This document shows positions 1 through 6,884 of a DNA stretch of 6,884 bases, in pieces. Where the stretch lies: the NCBI GenBank assembly GCA_025450255.1, contig JANWHV010000163.1:1-6884 (forward strand), in the 5' to 3' direction. The position numbers and the translations under genes were made by a program. Source of the stretch: Chloroflexota bacterium. GTDB lineage: Bacteria; Chloroflexota; UBA5177; JANWHV01. The notes beneath the pieces were generated by a model that saw nothing but the letters and a program-made list of their open reading frames with translations, ran no database searches and was not told the DNA's origin. Numbering within the stretch: position 1 is the first letter of the stretch; each line of letters starts with the position of its first letter.

Positions 1-1543
1 CACTTTCTATCTCACCACGCCTATCTATTACGTTAACGCGGAACCAAGTTGCGGGAGCGCCTACACCACGGTGGTAGTGGACGCCATGACGCGCTATCAG
101 CGCCTATTCGGCAAGGACAGCAGGATGCTGACCGGCACCGACGAGCATGGCGACAAAGTAGCGCAGGCCGCGACGGCCTTCGGCGTCTCGCCATATGAGT
201 ATGCCACCCGCATAAGCGATATTTTCCGCGCCACCTGGCCGCAACTCGGTATCGAGAGCGACGATTTCATCCGTACCACCGAGCCGCGCCACATGAAGGT
301 GGTACAGCGGATCGTGCAAACCGTCTACGACAAAGGCGAGATCTACTTCGGCGAATACGGCGGCCTGTATTGCTATGGCTGCGAGCGCTTCTACACCGAC
401 AAAGAGCTGGTGGACGGTAAATGTCCGCAACACCACACCGTGCCGACCTACATCAACGAGAAGAACTATTTCTTCCGCATGAGCAACTACCAGGAGTGGC
501 TGATCCGCCTCCTGGAGGACCATCCCGAGACGGTGCGCCCCGACCAGTACCGCCGCGAGGTGCTGGGCTTCCTGCGCGAGCCGCTCGAAGACCTGTGCAT
601 CTCCCGCCCGACCGCTCGCCTGACCTGGGGGATCCCTCTGCCCTTCGACCCGAGCTACGTCACCTACGTCTGGTTCGACGCGCTGATTAACTACGTCTCC
701 GCGCTTGACTATCCAGATGGCGATCTCTATGAAAAATATTGGCCGGTGGCCCAGCATGTCATTGGCAAGGACATCCTCAAGCCACACGCCGTCTACTGGC
801 CCACCATGCTGCAGGCGGCGGGCATCCCCATCTATAAGCACCTGAACGTGCACGGCTACTGGACGATGGGCGGCCAGAAGGGGTCGAAGTCAGCCGCCGC
901 GGACACCGCCGCCTCACTGGCCGAGGCCATGGCGCTGTTCCGTAAGCCGCTGGAACTGGCCGATCGCTTCAGCGCGGATGGCGCGCGGTACCTGCTGCTG
1001 CGCGAGATGCAGTTTGGCCAGGACAGCGAGTTCAGCCCGGAAGGCCTGGTTCGCCGCTATAACGCGGACTTGGCGCACGACCTGGGAAACCTGGCGAACC
1101 GTGTGATAAACATGACCAACCGCTACCTGGGCGGCATCGTCGCCGACCCGCCGGGCGAGAACGATGTCGATCGCGACCTGCGCGACGCGGCGATCGCCAC
1201 CCCGGACGCCGTACGCGCCGCCGTGGACGCCATGCAGCCACACCAGGCCATTCACGAGGCGATCGCCCTGGTGAAACGGACCAACGGCTATCTGGAGCAA
1301 AAAGCGCCCTGGTCCGCCGCCAGGGCCGGCGACATGGAGAGCGTGGCCACCACACTCTACTACGCGTGCGAGGCGCTGGGCATCGCGGCGACCCTCCTCA
1401 GCCCCGCCATGCCCACCAAGATGGCCGCGCTCCGCGCCGCGCTGTCCCTCCCCGCGCAGCCGCGCATCGGCGGCTGGGGCCACCTGGAGCCCGGCGCCAC
1501 GCTCGGCGCCCTGCCGATCCTATTCCCGAAGATCGAGGAATAA
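1..1543 (+). CDS. Methionyl-tRNA synthetase-like protein with altered HIGH and KMSKS motifs (5' partial)
   Basis: The frame is open from base 2 to a TAA at 1541-1543, giving 513 visible residues; only a handful of N-terminal residues are missing by comparison with Thermus MetRS. The GTG at 71 is not the start, because the Rossmann-fold opening (TFYLTTPIYYVNAEP) lies upstream of it. The class I MetRS layout is complete: GTDEHG near residue 45, a zinc knuckle C124-x2-C127...C141-x2-H144, W224 and H262 at methionine-pocket positions, and an anticodon domain with N363, R367 and W437. It ends at LFPKIEE, so the C-terminal Trbp111-like tRNA-binding domain of some MetRS is absent. The family charges tRNA-Met with methionine in the cytoplasm. 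Here, however, HIGH reads SCGS (visible residues 16-19) and KMSKS reads KGSKS (293-297), followed by about 12 extra residues in place of the usual LGN region. The fold assignment is very secure. Activity as a normal synthetase is doubtful, so the symbol metG is withheld. Confidence 0.93.
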   Translation, partial: TFYLTTPIYYVNAEPSCGSAYTTVVVDAMTRYQRLFGKDSRMLTGTDEHGDKVAQAATAFGVSPYEYATRISDIFRATWPQLGIESDDFIRTTEPRHMKVVQRIVQTVYDKGEIYFGEYGGLYCYGCERFYTDKELVDGKCPQHHTVPTYINEKNYFFRMSNYQEWLIRLLEDHPETVRPDQYRREVLGFLREPLEDLCISRPTARLTWGIPLPFDPSYVTYVWFDALINYVSALDYPDGDLYEKYWPVAQHVIGKDILKPHAVYWPTMLQAAGIPIYKHLNVHGYWTMGGQKGSKSAAADTAASLAEAMALFRKPLELADRFSADGARYLLLREMQFGQDSEFSPEGLVRRYNADLAHDLGNLANRVINMTNRYLGGIVADPPGENDVDRDLRDAAIATPDAVRAAVDAMQPHQAIHEAIALVKRTNGYLEQKAPWSAARAGDMESVATTLYYACEALGIAATLLSPAMPTKMAALRAALSLPAQPRIGGWGHLEPGATLGALPILFPKIEE

Positions 1544-1568: not shown

Positions 1569-3014
1569 TTAAGGGCTTCCCGGATAGGCGCGCTGTCCCT
1601 GTCCGCGCAGTCGCGTTTCAGCGGCAGGGGCCAACGGCAGCGTGACGCGGAAGACGCTGCCTTGCCCTACCATGCTTTCGGCGCTTATCGTGCCGCCATG
1701 CGCCTCAACCACGTATCGAGCGATGGCCAATCCCAGGCCGCTGCCCCCCGCCGCACGGGAACGGGCCTTGTCGACACGGTAGAAGCGCTCGAAGATCCGT
1801 TGCAGGTGCTCGGGCGGGATGCCGACGCCCGTATCGCGCACGATGAGGTATGCCTGGCCGTCGCCACTGTGCAGCGCAATCTCCGCGCCACCCTCATCCG
1901 TGTAGCGGGCGGCATTGCCGAGAAGATTTGTCACCAACTGCGTGAGATGGCCGGGATCGCCGATTACCAGTATGCCTGGCTCGATATGCAACACCAGGCG
2001 TAAGCCCTTGATCGTAAACAAGCCTTCGCTCTGCATCGCGGCCCGCCGCAGCACATCGTCCAGATCCACAATTTCACGGCTTAGCTCTACATGGCCGCTA
2101 TCGGCGCGGGCCAAAGTCAGTAGATCCTCGACGATACTGGTCATATGATTGACCTGCTCCTGCACGGTGCCAAGCGTGGCCTCGTATGCCTCGGGCGCAC
2201 GGCGCCGGCGCAGGGCAATCTCTACCTCGCCCTGCAGTACCGTCAACGGCGTGCGTAGCTCGTGCGAGGCATCGGCGGTAAACTGGCGCTGCCGCGAAAA
2301 CGTCTCCTCCAGGCGGTCGAGCATGGCATCGAAAGTGCTGGCTAGCCGACCCACTTCGTCGTCACGCGGCGGCAGATCTAGGCGCTCATGCAAATCCCCC
2401 GCCCCGATGCGCCGCGCCGTGCGAGTGATACGATCGATTGGCCGCAACGCGCGGCCGGCCAGAAAAGCGCCGCCCGCGCCGCTTACCAGAACCAGGATCG
2501 GCACGGCCAGAAGCAGCGCGGTAAGCACCCGGCCGAGCGTTGCATCCGCGCCCTCGCGCGGCCCCGCCACCTGTATGATGAACGGCCGGCCGGCATCATC
2601 GCGCACCGGTGCCGTATAGAGGCGCAGGTTGTCGGGAGCGGAGGTCAGGCCTGCCGCCCCGGCCATGGCGCGCCGCACCGCGCCGGTATCCGGCTGTACG
2701 CCGCTCGGGACGATATGCCGCGGTTCCAGGAGCCTGCCGTGGCGGTCGAAGACGAAGACATCCCCATCGCCCAGCCCCACCGGCGCGCCGTCCATCTGGA
2801 ATTGTACGCCCTCGTTGGTGAGGGTAGTTACGGCGACGAGCTGCGCGGCACGGTTCTCCAGCGTTGTATCCACTCCCGCATAAAGGGCATCGCGCACCTC
2901 CAGATAGGCGAACGCCGTGAAGCCAAGCAAGACCAGCAGTACCAGGGCGCCATACAAAAGAGTGAGGCGCAGGCGCAGCGAGATGTTCGGCAACCAGTGC
3001 CGGGTAGCGCACAT
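1569..3014 (-). CDS. Membrane sensor histidine kinase (HAMP-HisKA-HATPase), OmpR-system partner
   Basis: This 481-residue protein has the classic transmembrane sensor kinase layout. A short cytoplasmic N-terminus is followed by TM1 (about 17-38), an extracytoplasmic sensor region of about 120 residues (39-162), TM2 (about 163-186) and a HAMP linker (about 187-240). The H-box SHELRTP carries the phosphorylated His251. The ATPase domain has the N-box (NLLGNAARY, 363-371), G1 (DTGVGIP, 394-400), F-box (FERFYR) and G2 (GGSGLGLA, 423-430). It should autophosphorylate on His251 and pass phosphate to Asp51 of the regulator encoded just upstream. The sensor region resembles no ligand-binding domain I can name, so the stimulus is unknown. 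The ATG (3014-3012) directly abuts the regulator's TAG stop (3017-3015), which suggests translational coupling; no strong ribosome binding site is visible. The stop TAA at 1571-1569 converges on the synthetase-like gene. The C-terminal tail after residue 462 is short and basic. Confidence 0.95.
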   Translation of the reverse strand: MCATRHWLPNISLRLRLTLLYGALVLLVLLGFTAFAYLEVRDALYAGVDTTLENRAAQLVAVTTLTNEGVQFQMDGAPVGLGDGDVFVFDRHGRLLEPRHIVPSGVQPDTGAVRRAMAGAAGLTSAPDNLRLYTAPVRDDAGRPFIIQVAGPREGADATLGRVLTALLLAVPILVLVSGAGGAFLAGRALRPIDRITRTARRIGAGDLHERLDLPPRDDEVGRLASTFDAMLDRLEETFSRQRQFTADASHELRTPLTVLQGEVEIALRRRRAPEAYEATLGTVQEQVNHMTSIVEDLLTLARADSGHVELSREIVDLDDVLRRAAMQSEGLFTIKGLRLVLHIEPGILVIGDPGHLTQLVTNLLGNAARYTDEGGAEIALHSGDGQAYLIVRDTGVGIPPEHLQRIFERFYRVDKARSRAAGGSGLGLAIARYVVEAHGGTISAESMVGQGSVFRVTLPLAPAAETRLRGQGQRAYPGSP

Positions 3015-3686
3015 CTAGGACTCTCGTGCCACGTAGCCGACCCCGCGCACGGTGTGAATCAATTTTGCCTGTCCCGGCCCCTCAATCTTGCGGCGCAAGT
3101 AGCCTACGTACACGTCGATCACATTCGACTCCGTGTCGAAACTCATGTCCCAGCAGTGCTCGCCGATCATGGCGCGTGTCAGCACTCGCCCCGGACGTTC
3201 GAGCAGATAGTCGAGCAGGGCATACTCGCGGTTCGACAGATCGACCAGGCGGCCACCCCGCCGCACCTCGCGCGTGATGGGATCCAGCTCCAGGTCCGCG
3301 ATATGCCGGATCGGACGCTTATCCAGATTCTGGCGACGCTGCAAGGCCCGTAGGCGTGCCAGGAGCACGGCAAACGCGAAGGGCTTGGTCAGGTAGTCGT
3401 CGGCACCCGCGTCCAGGCCGGCCACGATATCGTCGGCGCCGTCACGCGCCGTCAACATCAAAATCGGCGTCGAGTTGCCCTGCGTCCGCAGCTGCCGGCA
3501 AACTTCAATGCCGTTAAGCCGGGGAAGCATGACGTCCAGCACCAACACATCGTAGGGGTTGACCTCGGCAAGGCGTAGCCCTTCGTCGCCATCACCAGCC
3601 ACGTCGACGGCGTGCTGCTCCTCTTCCATCCCCCGCCTGATGAATGAGGCTATCCGCGCTTCGTCCTCGACCAGCAAAATACGCAT
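3015..3686 (-). CDS. OmpR/PhoB-family response regulator
   Basis: This 223-residue protein has an N-terminal receiver domain (1 to about 115) and a C-terminal winged-helix DNA-binding domain (about 126-221), the normal length for the family. Visible receiver residues are the acidic pair E7-D8, phosphoacceptor D51 (LDVMLP), T79 and K101 (the KPF motif). The effector domain shows SNREYALLDYLL, the recognition-helix segment SNVIDVYVGYLRRKI (187-201) and a terminal wing ending in HTVRGVGYVA. The sequence is of the general CusR/MprA/CopR type, but that resemblance does not identify the signal. Phosphorylation by the adjoining kinase should promote dimerisation on direct-repeat DNA. The gene is first in a two-gene operon with the kinase and is divergent from the secreted-protein/ABC operon, which is its most likely target, possibly along with its own promoter. 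No convincing Shine-Dalgarno sequence precedes the ATG at 3686-3684. Confidence 0.96.
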   Translation of the reverse strand: MRILLVEDEARIASFIRRGMEEEQHAVDVAGDGDEGLRLAEVNPYDVLVLDVMLPRLNGIEVCRQLRTQGNSTPILMLTARDGADDIVAGLDAGADDYLTKPFAFAVLLARLRALQRRQNLDKRPIRHIADLELDPITREVRRGGRLVDLSNREYALLDYLLERPGRVLTRAMIGEHCWDMSFDTESNVIDVYVGYLRRKIEGPGQAKLIHTVRGVGYVARES

Positions 3687-3909
3687 GTGCCGCCAGGTCC
3701 GCTAGATTCGTCGTCTATCCATGCCACATCTTAGCCCTTCCTTCATAAGTTGGCGATGAGGCCCAGGTGAGAAACCTCTTACTTTCTCGCCGAAGTTAAG
3801 GGAATCCTCATGTTCACTTCACGTCCCTCTTAGCTTCGCCTCCTATGCTGGCAACAACGATCGCGCCCGATCGGACGATAACAACATGCATATCAAGGAG
3901 GCTCAACGT
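3687..3909. promoter_or_regulatory. Divergent intergenic control region between the two-component operon and the ABC operon
   Basis: This is the only sizeable gene-free stretch (223 nt), and both flanking operons read away from it, so their promoters are expected here. It is less GC-rich than the genes. Short repeated elements are visible: CCTCTTA at 3775-3781 and again at 3826-3832, AAGTT at 3747-3751 and 3793-3797, tandem TTCAC at 3813-3822, and a small inverted pair AGGT/ACCT at 3765-3768 and 3774-3777. TTAAGGGA (3796-3803) can pair imperfectly with TCCCTCTTA (3824-3832). OmpR-type regulators usually bind direct repeats, so these are candidate operator parts. None is a proven site, and no confident -35/-10 pair stands out on either strand. 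Confidence 0.6.
3895..3901 (+). promoter_or_regulatory. Strong ribosome binding site that sets the start of the secreted protein
   Basis: AAGGAGG lies 8 nt before ATG 3910. An in-frame ATG at 3886 lies upstream of it and would place this motif inside the coding region, so the start at 3910 is preferred. The resulting protein begins with a clean signal peptide. Confidence 0.85.
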
Positions 3910-4470
3910 ATGGCCCTTCGATCCTTGGTTACTCGGCGATGGGCGTCGCTGTCGATGGCCCTGGTCGCCATGTCTATTGTCATCGCCAACCCCACGCCTG
4001 CCGCGGCGGCGCCCGCGCGCGGCGACATCCCCGATAGCGCAACCTATCTCGTATTCACGACCCCCCATTACAGCGTGGAATACATCGAGGGCTGGGGCCG
4101 ACGGACTCGCGGCAGCGCTACCACGTTCGCCGACAAGGATAGCCTGGAGCAGGTGGTGCTGGCGTCCACTCCGCGCGGCAGCCTTCAGGCGTTCGTTCGT
4201 GGCCCGGAACTGGCCGCTCTGCGTCGCGCCCACGCCACAAGGATTACCAGTCCACGCGCGGTGAATCTTCGCGGCGGTCACGGCTGGTACCTGCAATACA
4301 CAATTCCCTCCGCCGCCGATCCAGTGACCGGGAAAGTGGTCCCGCTGCTGGTGGACCGCTATTACCTGGCCGGCCGGCGACAACTGGCCGTCTTGACCCT
4401 CGCCTCGCCGATCGGCGACGACAACGTCGACGCGTTCAAGCGAATCGCGCACAGCTTTGGCTGGCGATAG
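3910..4470 (+). CDS. Small secreted protein with a PsbP/MOG1-like (DUF1795-like) domain
   Basis: From ATG 3910 the product is 186 residues. It opens with a Sec-type signal peptide: a basic n-region (R4, R9, R10), a hydrophobic core at about 12-26 and a likely cleavage after the alanine run at 31-34 (AAAA-PARGD). There is no lipobox cysteine, so it should be released, or held by the signal segment, rather than lipidated. The mature part starts with YLVFTTPHYSVEYIEGW, followed by alternating beta-strand-like and short helical stretches, and ends FKRIAHSFGWR. This pattern (strand, Y-S-[IV]-x-Y-x-x-G-W, then a terminal helix with I-x-x-S-F) is typical of PsbP/MOG1-like and DUF1795-like extracytoplasmic proteins. 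The function of this group outside photosystem II is mostly unknown. The gene is first in the ABC operon, with 6 nt before the next ATG. By position it may be an accessory or binding partner of the transporter; that role is inference. Confidence 0.72.
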   Translation: MALRSLVTRRWASLSMALVAMSIVIANPTPAAAAPARGDIPDSATYLVFTTPHYSVEYIEGWGRRTRGSATTFADKDSLEQVVLASTPRGSLQAFVRGPELAALRRAHATRITSPRAVNLRGGHGWYLQYTIPSAADPVTGKVVPLLVDRYYLAGRRQLAVLTLASPIGDDNVDAFKRIAHSFGWR

Positions 4471-4476: not shown

Positions 4477-5283
4477 ATGATGGCGACGAGCATCCAGCGG
4501 ATACCCGCCACCCTGCCCCCCAGGGTGGCGGCGGGCCAGAACACGGCCGTGGTGCTGCTAGTTGATGTGTTTAAAATCTATCGCGAAGCGGATATCGAAA
4601 CCGTAGCCCTGCGCGGCGCGAACCTGTCCCTGCTCCCCGGCGAGTTCGTGGCGGTGCTGGGCCGGTCGGGGAGCGGGAAGAGCACCCTGCTCAACCTGCT
4701 CGGCGGCCTGGACCTGCCCAGCGCCGGCCAGGTCTGGGTGGCGGGCCGCGACATCACGCGGCTGGATGAGCGGGCGCGCGCCTCGCTGCGCCTGCGCCGG
4801 ATCGGCTACGTCTACCAGGACGGCAACCTGCTGCCCTATCTCACCGCCCAGGAAAACGTGGAGTTACCGCTACGGCTGGCCGGCGCGCGGCATGCCACGC
4901 GCCGCGCCCAGGACCTGCTGGCGGCGCTCGGCGTGCGCCACCGCCAACATCACCGACCGGCGGCGCTGTCTGGAGGCGAGCGCCAGCGCGTGGCGGTGGC
5001 GTGTGGTCTGGCCAACGCGCCCGCCCTGCTGCTAGCCGATGAGATTACCGGCGAACTGGATTCGGCGTCCGCCGAGGGCGTGCTGGCTGTCCTCGCCGAT
5101 GCCCGCTCCCGCTACGGGACCACCGTGCTGGTCGTCACCCATAATGCCGCGGTGGCTGCCCAGGCCGACCGCGTGGTGCGCATGATCGACGGCAAGCTGG
5201 AGGATCCGCCGGTCGACGCGAGGGGTCAGCGGCGAGACGACGCCCAGGCATCCGGCATCTCGCCGCTGGAGGTACAACCATGA
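4477..5283 (+). CDS. ABC transporter ATP-binding protein, LolD/MacB-type (first of two)
   Basis: This 268-residue ATPase has a complete nucleotide-binding domain: Walker A GRSGSGKST (62-70), Q-loop Q114, signature LSGGE (164-168), Walker B LLLADE ending in catalytic E189, and H-loop H222. The loop after the signature glutamine and the segment LTAQENVELPL place it with the LolD/MacB/FtsE group, which powers FtsX-like permeases that move lipids, peptides or drugs, or act mechanically. Two features are unusual. The residues after Walker B read ITGELD where the family normally has PTGNLD. There is also an N-terminal extension of about 25 residues before the usual start of the fold, so a later GTG start (4549 or 4552) is possible though it lacks a better ribosome site. 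The C-terminal tail (about 243-268) is polar and not conserved. It overlaps the next gene by ATGA, which implies coupled translation. Confidence 0.94.
   Translation: MMATSIQRIPATLPPRVAAGQNTAVVLLVDVFKIYREADIETVALRGANLSLLPGEFVAVLGRSGSGKSTLLNLLGGLDLPSAGQVWVAGRDITRLDERARASLRLRRIGYVYQDGNLLPYLTAQENVELPLRLAGARHATRRAQDLLAALGVRHRQHHRPAALSGGERQRVAVACGLANAPALLLADEITGELDSASAEGVLAVLADARSRYGTTVLVVTHNAAVAAQADRVVRMIDGKLEDPPVDARGQRRDDAQASGISPLEVQP
5268..5272 (+). promoter_or_regulatory. Ribosome binding site for the second ATPase, inside the first ATPase gene
   Basis: GGAGG lies 7 nt before ATG 5280. It supports that start and shows the second ATPase can be initiated on its own as well as by coupling through the ATGA overlap. 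Confidence 0.75.
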
Positions 5284-5963
5284 GAGCGCTGCCCATCCTG
5301 GAAACCGTCGCGGTGGAACGCGTCTACGGCGCCGGGGAGGCCGCCGTCCATGCCCTCCGCGGCGTGAGCCTGTCCGTGGCTCCGGGCGAGCGCGTAGCGA
5401 TTACCGGGCCCTCAGGCTGCGGCAAGACCACGCTACTGCATCTGCTGGGTGGCCTGGACCATCCGACCAGGGGCGAGGTGCGCTTCGCGGGCGCGCCCTT
5501 CGCTCGATCGCGTACCGCCGCGGCAATCCAGCGACGCCGCCTTGGCTTCGTCTTTCAATCCTTCGGGTTGCTTCCCGCGCTCACGGCACAAGAGAATGTG
5601 GAACTGCCCCTGGCCCTGGCAGGCGTGGCCGCAGCGCGGCGGGTCGAGGCCGCGCAAGCGATGCTTGATGCCGTGGCACTGACTGATCGGGCCGCCTATC
5701 TGGTCGAGGAGCTTTCGGGCGGCCAGCGCCAACGGGTTGCCATCGCCCGTGCCCTTGCCGGCGAGCCGGAGGTGGTGCTGGCCGACGAGCCAACTGGGAG
5801 CCTGGACTCCGCCACCGCCGCCGCGGTCATGGATATGCTGCTCACCCTTCTGACCAGGCGGGGAGCGGCCCTGGTGCTTGTGACCCATGATACCGGCATG
5901 GCCCGGCGCGCCGACCGCGAGGTGCGGCTGCGCGACGGGCATCTGGAAGGAGCGCGCGCATGA
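5280..5963 (+). CDS. ABC transporter ATP-binding protein, LolD/MacB-type (second of two)
   Basis: This 227-residue ATPase is the usual length for LolD/MacB-type stand-alone domains. It has Walker A GPSGCGKTT (43-51), Q-loop Q93 within FVFQSFGLLPALTAQENVE, signature LSGGQ (145-149), Walker B VVLADE with catalytic E170, the canonical PTGSLD D-loop and H-loop H203. All catalytic residues are in place, so it should hydrolyse ATP at the inner face of the membrane to drive the permease that follows. It is related to the preceding ATPase but clearly not a recent copy: the two share the family motifs and differ across most other positions. It overlaps both neighbours by ATGA (5280-5283 and 5960-5963), so the three transporter genes are likely translated in step. 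It is a better match to the family consensus than the first ATPase. Confidence 0.96.
   Translation: MRALPILETVAVERVYGAGEAAVHALRGVSLSVAPGERVAITGPSGCGKTTLLHLLGGLDHPTRGEVRFAGAPFARSRTAAAIQRRRLGFVFQSFGLLPALTAQENVELPLALAGVAAARRVEAAQAMLDAVALTDRAAYLVEELSGGQRQRVAIARALAGEPEVVLADEPTGSLDSATAAAVMDMLLTLLTRRGAALVLVTHDTGMARRADREVRLRDGHLEGARA
5947..5952 (+). promoter_or_regulatory. Ribosome binding site for the permease
   Basis: AAGGAG lies 7 nt before ATG 5960, within the last codons of the second ATPase. It fixes the permease start. Confidence 0.8.
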
Positions 5964-6884
5964 GCACGCTGTGGTTTGCCCGGCGACTACTCGTGCGCAC
6001 GCCGCGCCGGAGCATCGCCACCTTGATCGGCATTGCTCTTGCGGCCGGCATGCTCGGCGCGGTGCTCTTCTTCGTCAACGCCTCGTCGCGCACCATGACA
6101 CAGCGAGCGGTGAGCGGCGTGGTGGTGGATCTGCAAGCCGAATTACAGGGCGGCTCGGGAAGCATGGCAAACGCCCTGCCTATCCTGCGCCGTGGTCCGC
6201 ATATCGCCGCCGCCGAACGCTTCGCCCTGGCATCCTTCACCAGTAGCGCCATGAACCGGGCGGATCGTGCCGGCACTACCGGCACGGGAGCGCTGGTAGC
6301 CGTTGATCCTACCTACCTGCGCACCTTCGGCGCCTTCCGCTTGACGCAAGGGACCTTCGGCGCCGGCGGCATCGCCATCAGCCAGGACATGGGCACCAAC
6401 CTGGGGGCGCGAGTCGGCGATACGATCGCGATCCAGTTGCCAGGCCATGCCGGCGTGCTGCGCGCGCCGGTCACCGGCATCCTGAACATCAAGCTGGCGG
6501 ATATCGTCTTTCGACCGATCGACCCCGCGCTCCGCGGGCTGGCCGCGAATCCCCCCGTTAACGTGGTGCTGATGCCCTATAACATCTTCCAGGCGCGCTA
6601 CGCCGCCGTGCTGCGAGCGCGGACAGGCGCCGCGCCAACCGATGTGGTGACAAAGACCACACCCGCCGTCAGCATCCAGGTGCACATGCTGCTGGATCAT
6701 GCCGCCATTCCCGCCGACCCCGCCGCGGCCCAGACCTGGCTAACCGGGCTGCGGCACGACTTTGAGAAACCCTTTGCCGGACAGGTCGTGGTAGCGGACA
6801 ACCTGTTCGGCGCCCTGGATACTGCCCGGTCCGACACCGTCTGGGCCATGGTGATCTTCGTCTTCCTGGCGCTCCCTGGCGTCG
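5960..6884 (+). CDS. FtsX/MacB-type ABC transporter permease (3' partial)
   Basis: The frame from ATG 5960 is open to the window end, giving 308 residues with no stop. The N-terminus is typical of the family: a short amphipathic start (MSTLWFARRLLVRTPRR), then TM1 at about 18-40. A large extracytoplasmic domain of about 250 residues follows, containing the MacB-periplasmic-domain-like pattern ISQDMGTNLGARVGDTIAIQ (an 'is..lA..Lg.kvGD.i.l' type motif). Near the cut edge a second hydrophobic helix begins (about 296 onward, TVWAMVIFVFLALPGV). This matches the four-helix FtsX plan, TM1 - extracytoplasmic domain - TM2-4, so the remaining helices, or a longer two-domain permease, lie downstream. 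It should pair with one or both ATPases encoded directly upstream, with which it overlaps by ATGA. The substrate cannot be told from sequence. Export or envelope-linked activity is more likely than import, since no solute-binding protein of an importer class is present. Confidence 0.88.
   Translation, partial: MSTLWFARRLLVRTPRRSIATLIGIALAAGMLGAVLFFVNASSRTMTQRAVSGVVVDLQAELQGGSGSMANALPILRRGPHIAAAERFALASFTSSAMNRADRAGTTGTGALVAVDPTYLRTFGAFRLTQGTFGAGGIAISQDMGTNLGARVGDTIAIQLPGHAGVLRAPVTGILNIKLADIVFRPIDPALRGLAANPPVNVVLMPYNIFQARYAAVLRARTGAAPTDVVTKTTPAVSIQVHMLLDHAAIPADPAAAQTWLTGLRHDFEKPFAGQVVVADNLFGALDTARSDTVWAMVIFVFLALPGV

Follow-up and report, generated by a model that had tools for sequence, protein, structure and literature searches.

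A methionyl-tRNA synthetase derivative with Ser-x-Gly-Ser in place of the HIGH motif and a lengthened KMSKS loop

The 6,884-nucleotide stretch of DNA analysed here (the window) opens with a gene related to methionyl-tRNA synthetase (MetRS) in which both catalytic signature motifs of class I synthetases are altered. Comparison with its relatives suggests that the product probably functions as a type-1 MetRS derivative in which the ATP site has been rebuilt; it is predicted to activate methionine and to charge tRNA-Met. The more specific reading, that it would serve as the sole MetRS of a Chloroflexota lineage, with all Met-tRNA including the initiator made without a HIGH histidine while the KMSKS lysines, together with a helix inserted in the ATP lid, hold the transition state, is a serious possibility that we place somewhat below an even chance. 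The variant family apparently comes from Chloroflexota bacteria, its host being so assigned because two of its members, P0016 and P0029, are named Chloroflexota bacterium. Class I synthetases are defined by two motifs, of which HIGH is one, and if the protein is indeed the sole MetRS, the 31 proteins of the family preserve intermediates in the replacement of a hallmark motif in an essential enzyme. Stepwise loss of both histidines, with the intermediates sampled and constraint kept, would allow the rebuilding of an active site and the necessity of the histidines to be tested. Should it be a second copy instead, it might have taken on a new function derived from MetRS, or might confer tolerance to an inhibitor as IleRS2 does.

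Both signature motifs of the window protein are altered

Curated MetRS models match the window protein above their cut-offs (NF008900, 611.6 bits against 598; TIGR00398, 414 against 336.35), Pfam finds tRNA-synt_1g and Anticodon_3, the predicted fold is that of MetRS and the protein takes a place inside the MetRS1 tree, all of which bears out the MetRS ancestry proposed in an earlier note on this DNA. Because the class I HIGH motif (HxGH), a criterion of type-1 MetRS, is absent, we describe the protein as derived from MetRS and placed within the MetRS1 tree, and not as a proven MetRS. The features of the window are collected in Table 1.

Table 1. Features of the window, with positions counted from its first nucleotide
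Feature	Position	Strand	Remarks
MetRS-like open reading frame	2..1543	+	513 aa plus stop; no internal stop; 5' end truncated by the window start
S-C-G-S replacing the class I HIGH motif, residues 16-19	47..58	+	from codons and alignment
Single zinc knuckle of the connecting peptide	371..433	+	C124, C127, C141 and H144 kept
K-G-S-K-S replacing KMSKS, residues 293-297	878..892	+	both lysines retained
Lengthened loop after KGSKS, residues 298-315	893..946	+	18 residues, compared with 6 in canonical proteins
Anticodon-binding domain, residues 402-512	1205..1537	+	PF19303, 28.5 bits, cut-off 23.5
Sensor histidine kinase	1569-3014	-	convergent with the MetRS-like gene
OmpR-type response regulator	3015-3686	-	convergent with the MetRS-like gene
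194-aa protein	3886-4470	+	signal-like N-terminus by eye; between the two-component genes and the ABC operon
Two tandem LolD/MacB-type ABC ATPases	4477-5283, 5280-5963	+	Pfam/NCBIfam scans
MacB_PCD permease behind the ABC ATPases	5960-6883	+	truncated by the window end

As the earlier note had described, SCGS aligns without a gap to the HLGH of Thermus MetRS (3vu8, 1a8h), and both HIGH histidines are lost, S-C-G-S standing where all 220 of the canonical relatives aligned have H-x-G-H. Its argument that a single read error cannot explain the change also holds, since the codons are AGT TGC GGG AGC, each Ser codon lies two bases from a His codon, and the motif pair is found in 16 further full-length proteins. 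Looking for the motif in relatives, as it had proposed, gave S-[ACVT]-G-S common to those 16 proteins; the good conservation that it reported around the HIGH site is confirmed, and overall retention of conserved columns is near that of the canonical sisters. Beyond the SCGS of the note, KMSKS is also altered, to KGSKS, and behind it lies a 12-residue insertion that is predicted to form a helix. The four zinc-knuckle residues are invariant in 70/70 rows (alignment A1).

Motif states among the relatives

When about 5.8 billion proteins were searched, 7999 candidates were scored, and the best 120 of these were aligned with the window protein. Among these 120, S-[ACVT]-G-S occurs together with K-G-S-K-S in 16 full-length matches (77-93% identical to the window protein), H-[LV]-G-S with K-[GA]-[SG]-K-[ST] in 11 (60-67%) and HLGS with a normal KMSKS in three (62-64%), while 89 have histidine at both HIGH positions; the remaining match, P0037, is a fragment in which KGSKS is present and the HIGH region is absent. 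Two more searches, with P0028 and P0035 as queries, contributed 133 additional proteins among the matches listed, none of them a further full-length variant. The window and these 253 proteins make 254 aligned rows. Setting aside three fragments that lack the HIGH region, the other 251 comprise 17 with S-[ACVT]-G-S (hereafter SxGS), 14 with H-[LV]-G-S and 220 with H-x-G-H among the matches listed, the canonical rows combining HxGH with KMSKS, KMSKT or KISKS. As a control, 81 MetRS loci belonging to other bacteria were compared, and each of the 81 has both histidines together with K[MI]SK[ST].

All 17 SxGS rows have serine at the places of the two HIGH histidines, whereas the x residue varies (A in nine, V in five, C in two and T in one), a pattern that seems unlike decay. 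Glycine occupies the third HIGH position in 31/31 variant rows, and both KMSKS lysines are retained in every row compared. The distance from KMSKS to the next conserved position is six residues in the 220 canonical rows and in the three HLGS/KMSKS rows; it is 16 residues in 15 of the SxGS rows and 18 in the other two, the window protein included, and among the 11 insert-bearing H-x-G-S rows it is 19 in ten and 17 in one. An arginine of the lengthened loop, R314, is present in 28/28 full-length rows that carry the insertion. R41 and R185, which are near-fixed in the variants, were considered as further candidate substitute cations.

Phylogeny and order of changes

For a tree that leaves out the motif and insertion columns, 65 rows were taken from the 121 in the first alignment, namely all 31 variants, the 16 canonical sisters and 18 of the 73 others. 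The 31 variants, window included, form one clade (support 99/95), within which the 17 SxGS rows (100/100) and the HLGS/KMSKS rows (100/100) are each a clade, and the 16 canonical rows, themselves a clade (100/99), are the sister of the whole; among them is P0035, which is named Anaerolineae. This nesting of motif states within one 31-sequence clade speaks for a working enzyme. The insert-bearing H-x-G-S rows are not monophyletic; one of them, P0030, sits on a long branch beside the other insert-bearing rows when the motif columns are included (93) and has no resolved position when they are left out.

From the tree positions of the variant groups, the likely order of events is that H19 changed to serine, that the insertion and the change of M294 to glycine or alanine followed, and that H16 was replaced by serine last. 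The M294 change and the insertion would have arisen a single time, unless P0030 stands apart, in which case they arose twice. Proteins in which only the second HIGH histidine is replaced thus look like apparent intermediates. These fall into two groups with HLGS or HVGS, one having the altered KMSKS and the insertion (P0017-P0025, P0027, P0030) and one having neither (P0026, P0028, P0029).

The canonical sister branch consists, among the matches listed, of 16 full-length clusters (P0031-P0036, P0038-P0045, P0047, P0049), and such type-1 MetRS looks patchy in Chloroflexota. The variant family itself, with 31 members among the matches listed, is rare and patchy; so small a branch fits a small lineage with a replaced MetRS and an accessory gene alike.

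Constraint, substrate sites and predicted structure

Constraint was measured over 182 columns that are at least 97% conserved in the 204 canonical rows that do not belong to this branch. The mean fraction retained by a sequence is 0.895 in SxGS rows, 0.885 in insert-bearing H-x-G-S rows, 0.934 in HLGS/KMSKS rows and 0.909 in the canonical sisters, and the columns held by at least 80% of the rows number 158, 160, 168 and 165, respectively. SxGS rows have lost 24 columns, compared with 17 in the canonical sisters; of the 24, H16, H19, M294 and G299 belong to the HIGH motif and loop, Y323, G324, F331 and E346 follow closely behind the loop, and the others are scattered. Measured from the common node, the mean distance is 0.98 for SxGS, 0.88 for insert-bearing H-x-G-S, 0.62 for HLGS/KMSKS and 0.79 for the canonical sisters, so that SxGS rows evolve slightly faster than the latter. 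Taken together, the SxGS protein is constrained nearly as strongly as its canonical sisters, and the changes that tell most lie at the ATP site.

AlphaFold2, run on a 70-row alignment, returned a MetRS fold with a mean pLDDT of 93.4 and a helix at residues 304-314 inside the lengthened loop, confidence being low for the KGSKS loop and for the first part of the insertion (pLDDT 64 in block 291-300 and 71 in block 301-310). The best structural matches are all MetRS, both the 50 best by Foldseek and the 50 best by VIA-align 2. N363 and R367, just before the anticodon domain, and W437 are retained in 17/17 SxGS rows, and we take these residues to be contacts of the CAU anticodon. With the anticodon positions intact, a genetic-code change tied to the variant MetRS found no evidence. 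Methionine and ATP contacts were taken from the S. aureus MetRS list in the accessible part of PMC9071491 and mapped by constant offsets within segments; the window residues at these listed positions are canonical except for HIGH and the Met of KMSKS.

A working enzyme could have arisen in three steps, in which the second HIGH histidine gave way to serine, the KMSKS methionine then became glycine (once alanine) as 10-13 residues were inserted in the loop that closes over ATP, and the first HIGH histidine was finally replaced by serine. The phosphate and transition-state contacts of the histidines would have passed to the two lysines of KMSKS and to the S-x-G-S turn, which is small and polar, and the lengthened loop may add a substitute contact, for which R314 is the candidate; the role would be in translation. 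It is because of the fixed Ser-x-Gly-Ser, the invariant lysines and R314 in all insert-bearing rows that we infer a rebuilt and not a dead site.

Genome searches and gene neighbourhood

The variant motif was found in none of at least 80 MetRS loci from a genome-contig scan, all of them from other bacterial groups. Among 59 relative genomes of G002, the best match is 62% identical over a partial gene and canonical (HIGH, KMSKT, no insertion), the other matches there being judged by identity alone; 388 relative genomes of G001 gave one match at E <= 1e-185, 58% identical and also canonical (L081, one of the 81 control loci). No second MetRS from the contigs of P0005 (length 1,034,105) or P0028 (161,987) appeared among the best 120 of 7999 in each search, a weak indication. 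The plasmid collection yielded 291 matching records, all below 60% identity, and the viral contigs none that matched the window protein. Within the window there are no tRNA genes and no Rfam families at the gathering threshold, and the 194-aa protein has no Pfam or NCBIfam match at 0.001.

Alternative explanations

The protein could be a weak or dead paralogue that binds Met and tRNA-Met as a sensor or regulator and leaves charging to a canonical MetRS encoded elsewhere, which we consider unlikely but deserving of attention. This extends the reading of the earlier note, which took the protein for a specialised paralogue and expected activation to be severely weakened. Both histidines are lost, KMSKS and residues behind it are changed, and the rarity and patchiness of the family would suit an accessory gene too; synthetases are moreover often duplicated (the accessible part of PMC4787780 counts 25,913 cases across 26,837 genomes), and mutation of the first histidine slows activation about 1000-fold in several class I enzymes covered in the available portion of PMC10485003. 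Against a working enzyme count the absence of any HIGH histidine, whereas IleRS2 has two, the loss of Y323, G324, F331 and E346 in SxGS rows, the somewhat longer branches of these rows, and the low confidence with which the KGSKS loop is modelled. However, the change is focused and not relaxed, with fixed serines, invariant lysines and near-canonical constraint, and one subgroup retains KMSKS and the first histidine. Crippled activation is also at odds with the retained substrate residues and KMSKS lysines, and TrpRS with TIGN (PMC10201369) and IleRS2 with G/AxHH (PMC10485003), as described in the parts of these papers at hand, are precedents.

An active second MetRS beside a canonical one, whose altered ATP site tolerates an inhibitor or stress as in IleRS2, overlaps with the working-enzyme reading in activity and differs from it in copy number. 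The G/AxHH of IleRS2 raises the Ki of mupirocin up to 1000-fold with activity little reduced (PMC10485003, available part), yet nothing within the window points to an inhibitor, and we think this improbable. Recruitment of a MetRS paralogue to peptide or metabolite synthesis, outside translation, is very improbable: a widespread paralogue of such a kind is described in what we had of PMC2922099, but the window protein has one zinc knuckle, altered catalytic motifs and an anticodon domain, and Pfam finds no cupin among the six further open reading frames downstream in the window. To our knowledge, no inhibitor is known for a MetRS with a HIGH motif altered in this way. That the motif stems from an error of sequencing or assembly, or that the gene is an isolated pseudogene, has a negligible chance and was excluded by the intact open reading frame and the 16 further full-length proteins sharing the motif pair.

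Comparison with known systems

No paper on an SxGS MetRS family was found by title or abstract among open-licence PMC papers. The closest comparison is type-1 MetRS itself (T. thermophilus 1a8h; NF008900/TIGR00398), with which the window protein shares fold, domain order, single zinc knuckle, methionine pocket, KMSKS lysines and anticodon positions, and from which it differs by SCGS for HIGH, by KGSKS plus the 12-residue insertion for KMSKS, and by changes at residues 323, 324, 331 and 346 in SxGS rows. TrpRS belongs to another class I subclass than MetRS. Bacterial TrpRS with TIGN, in the accessible part of PMC10201369, likewise has neither HIGH histidine and small polar residues instead, but unlike the window protein it retains KMSKS, so that the likeness is one of working principle and not of kinship. 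The paralogue of predicted peptide synthesis systems in PMC2922099 is also MetRS-derived; in the portion available its zinc ribbon is given as duplicated, its catalytic residues as intact and a cupin as its partner, none of which is seen in the window.

IleRS2 with G/AxHH, as far as the available part of PMC10485003 describes it, is like the present family a naturally occurring clade of class I synthetases whose HIGH motif is altered, and it is active, the natural D. radiodurans enzyme having a kcat of 45.5 per s. It keeps two histidines, one moved to the third place, where in mutant structures it occupies the place of the first; in contrast, the SxGS proteins have none, their KMSKS is altered too, and the third position is glycine, not histidine, throughout the 31 variants.
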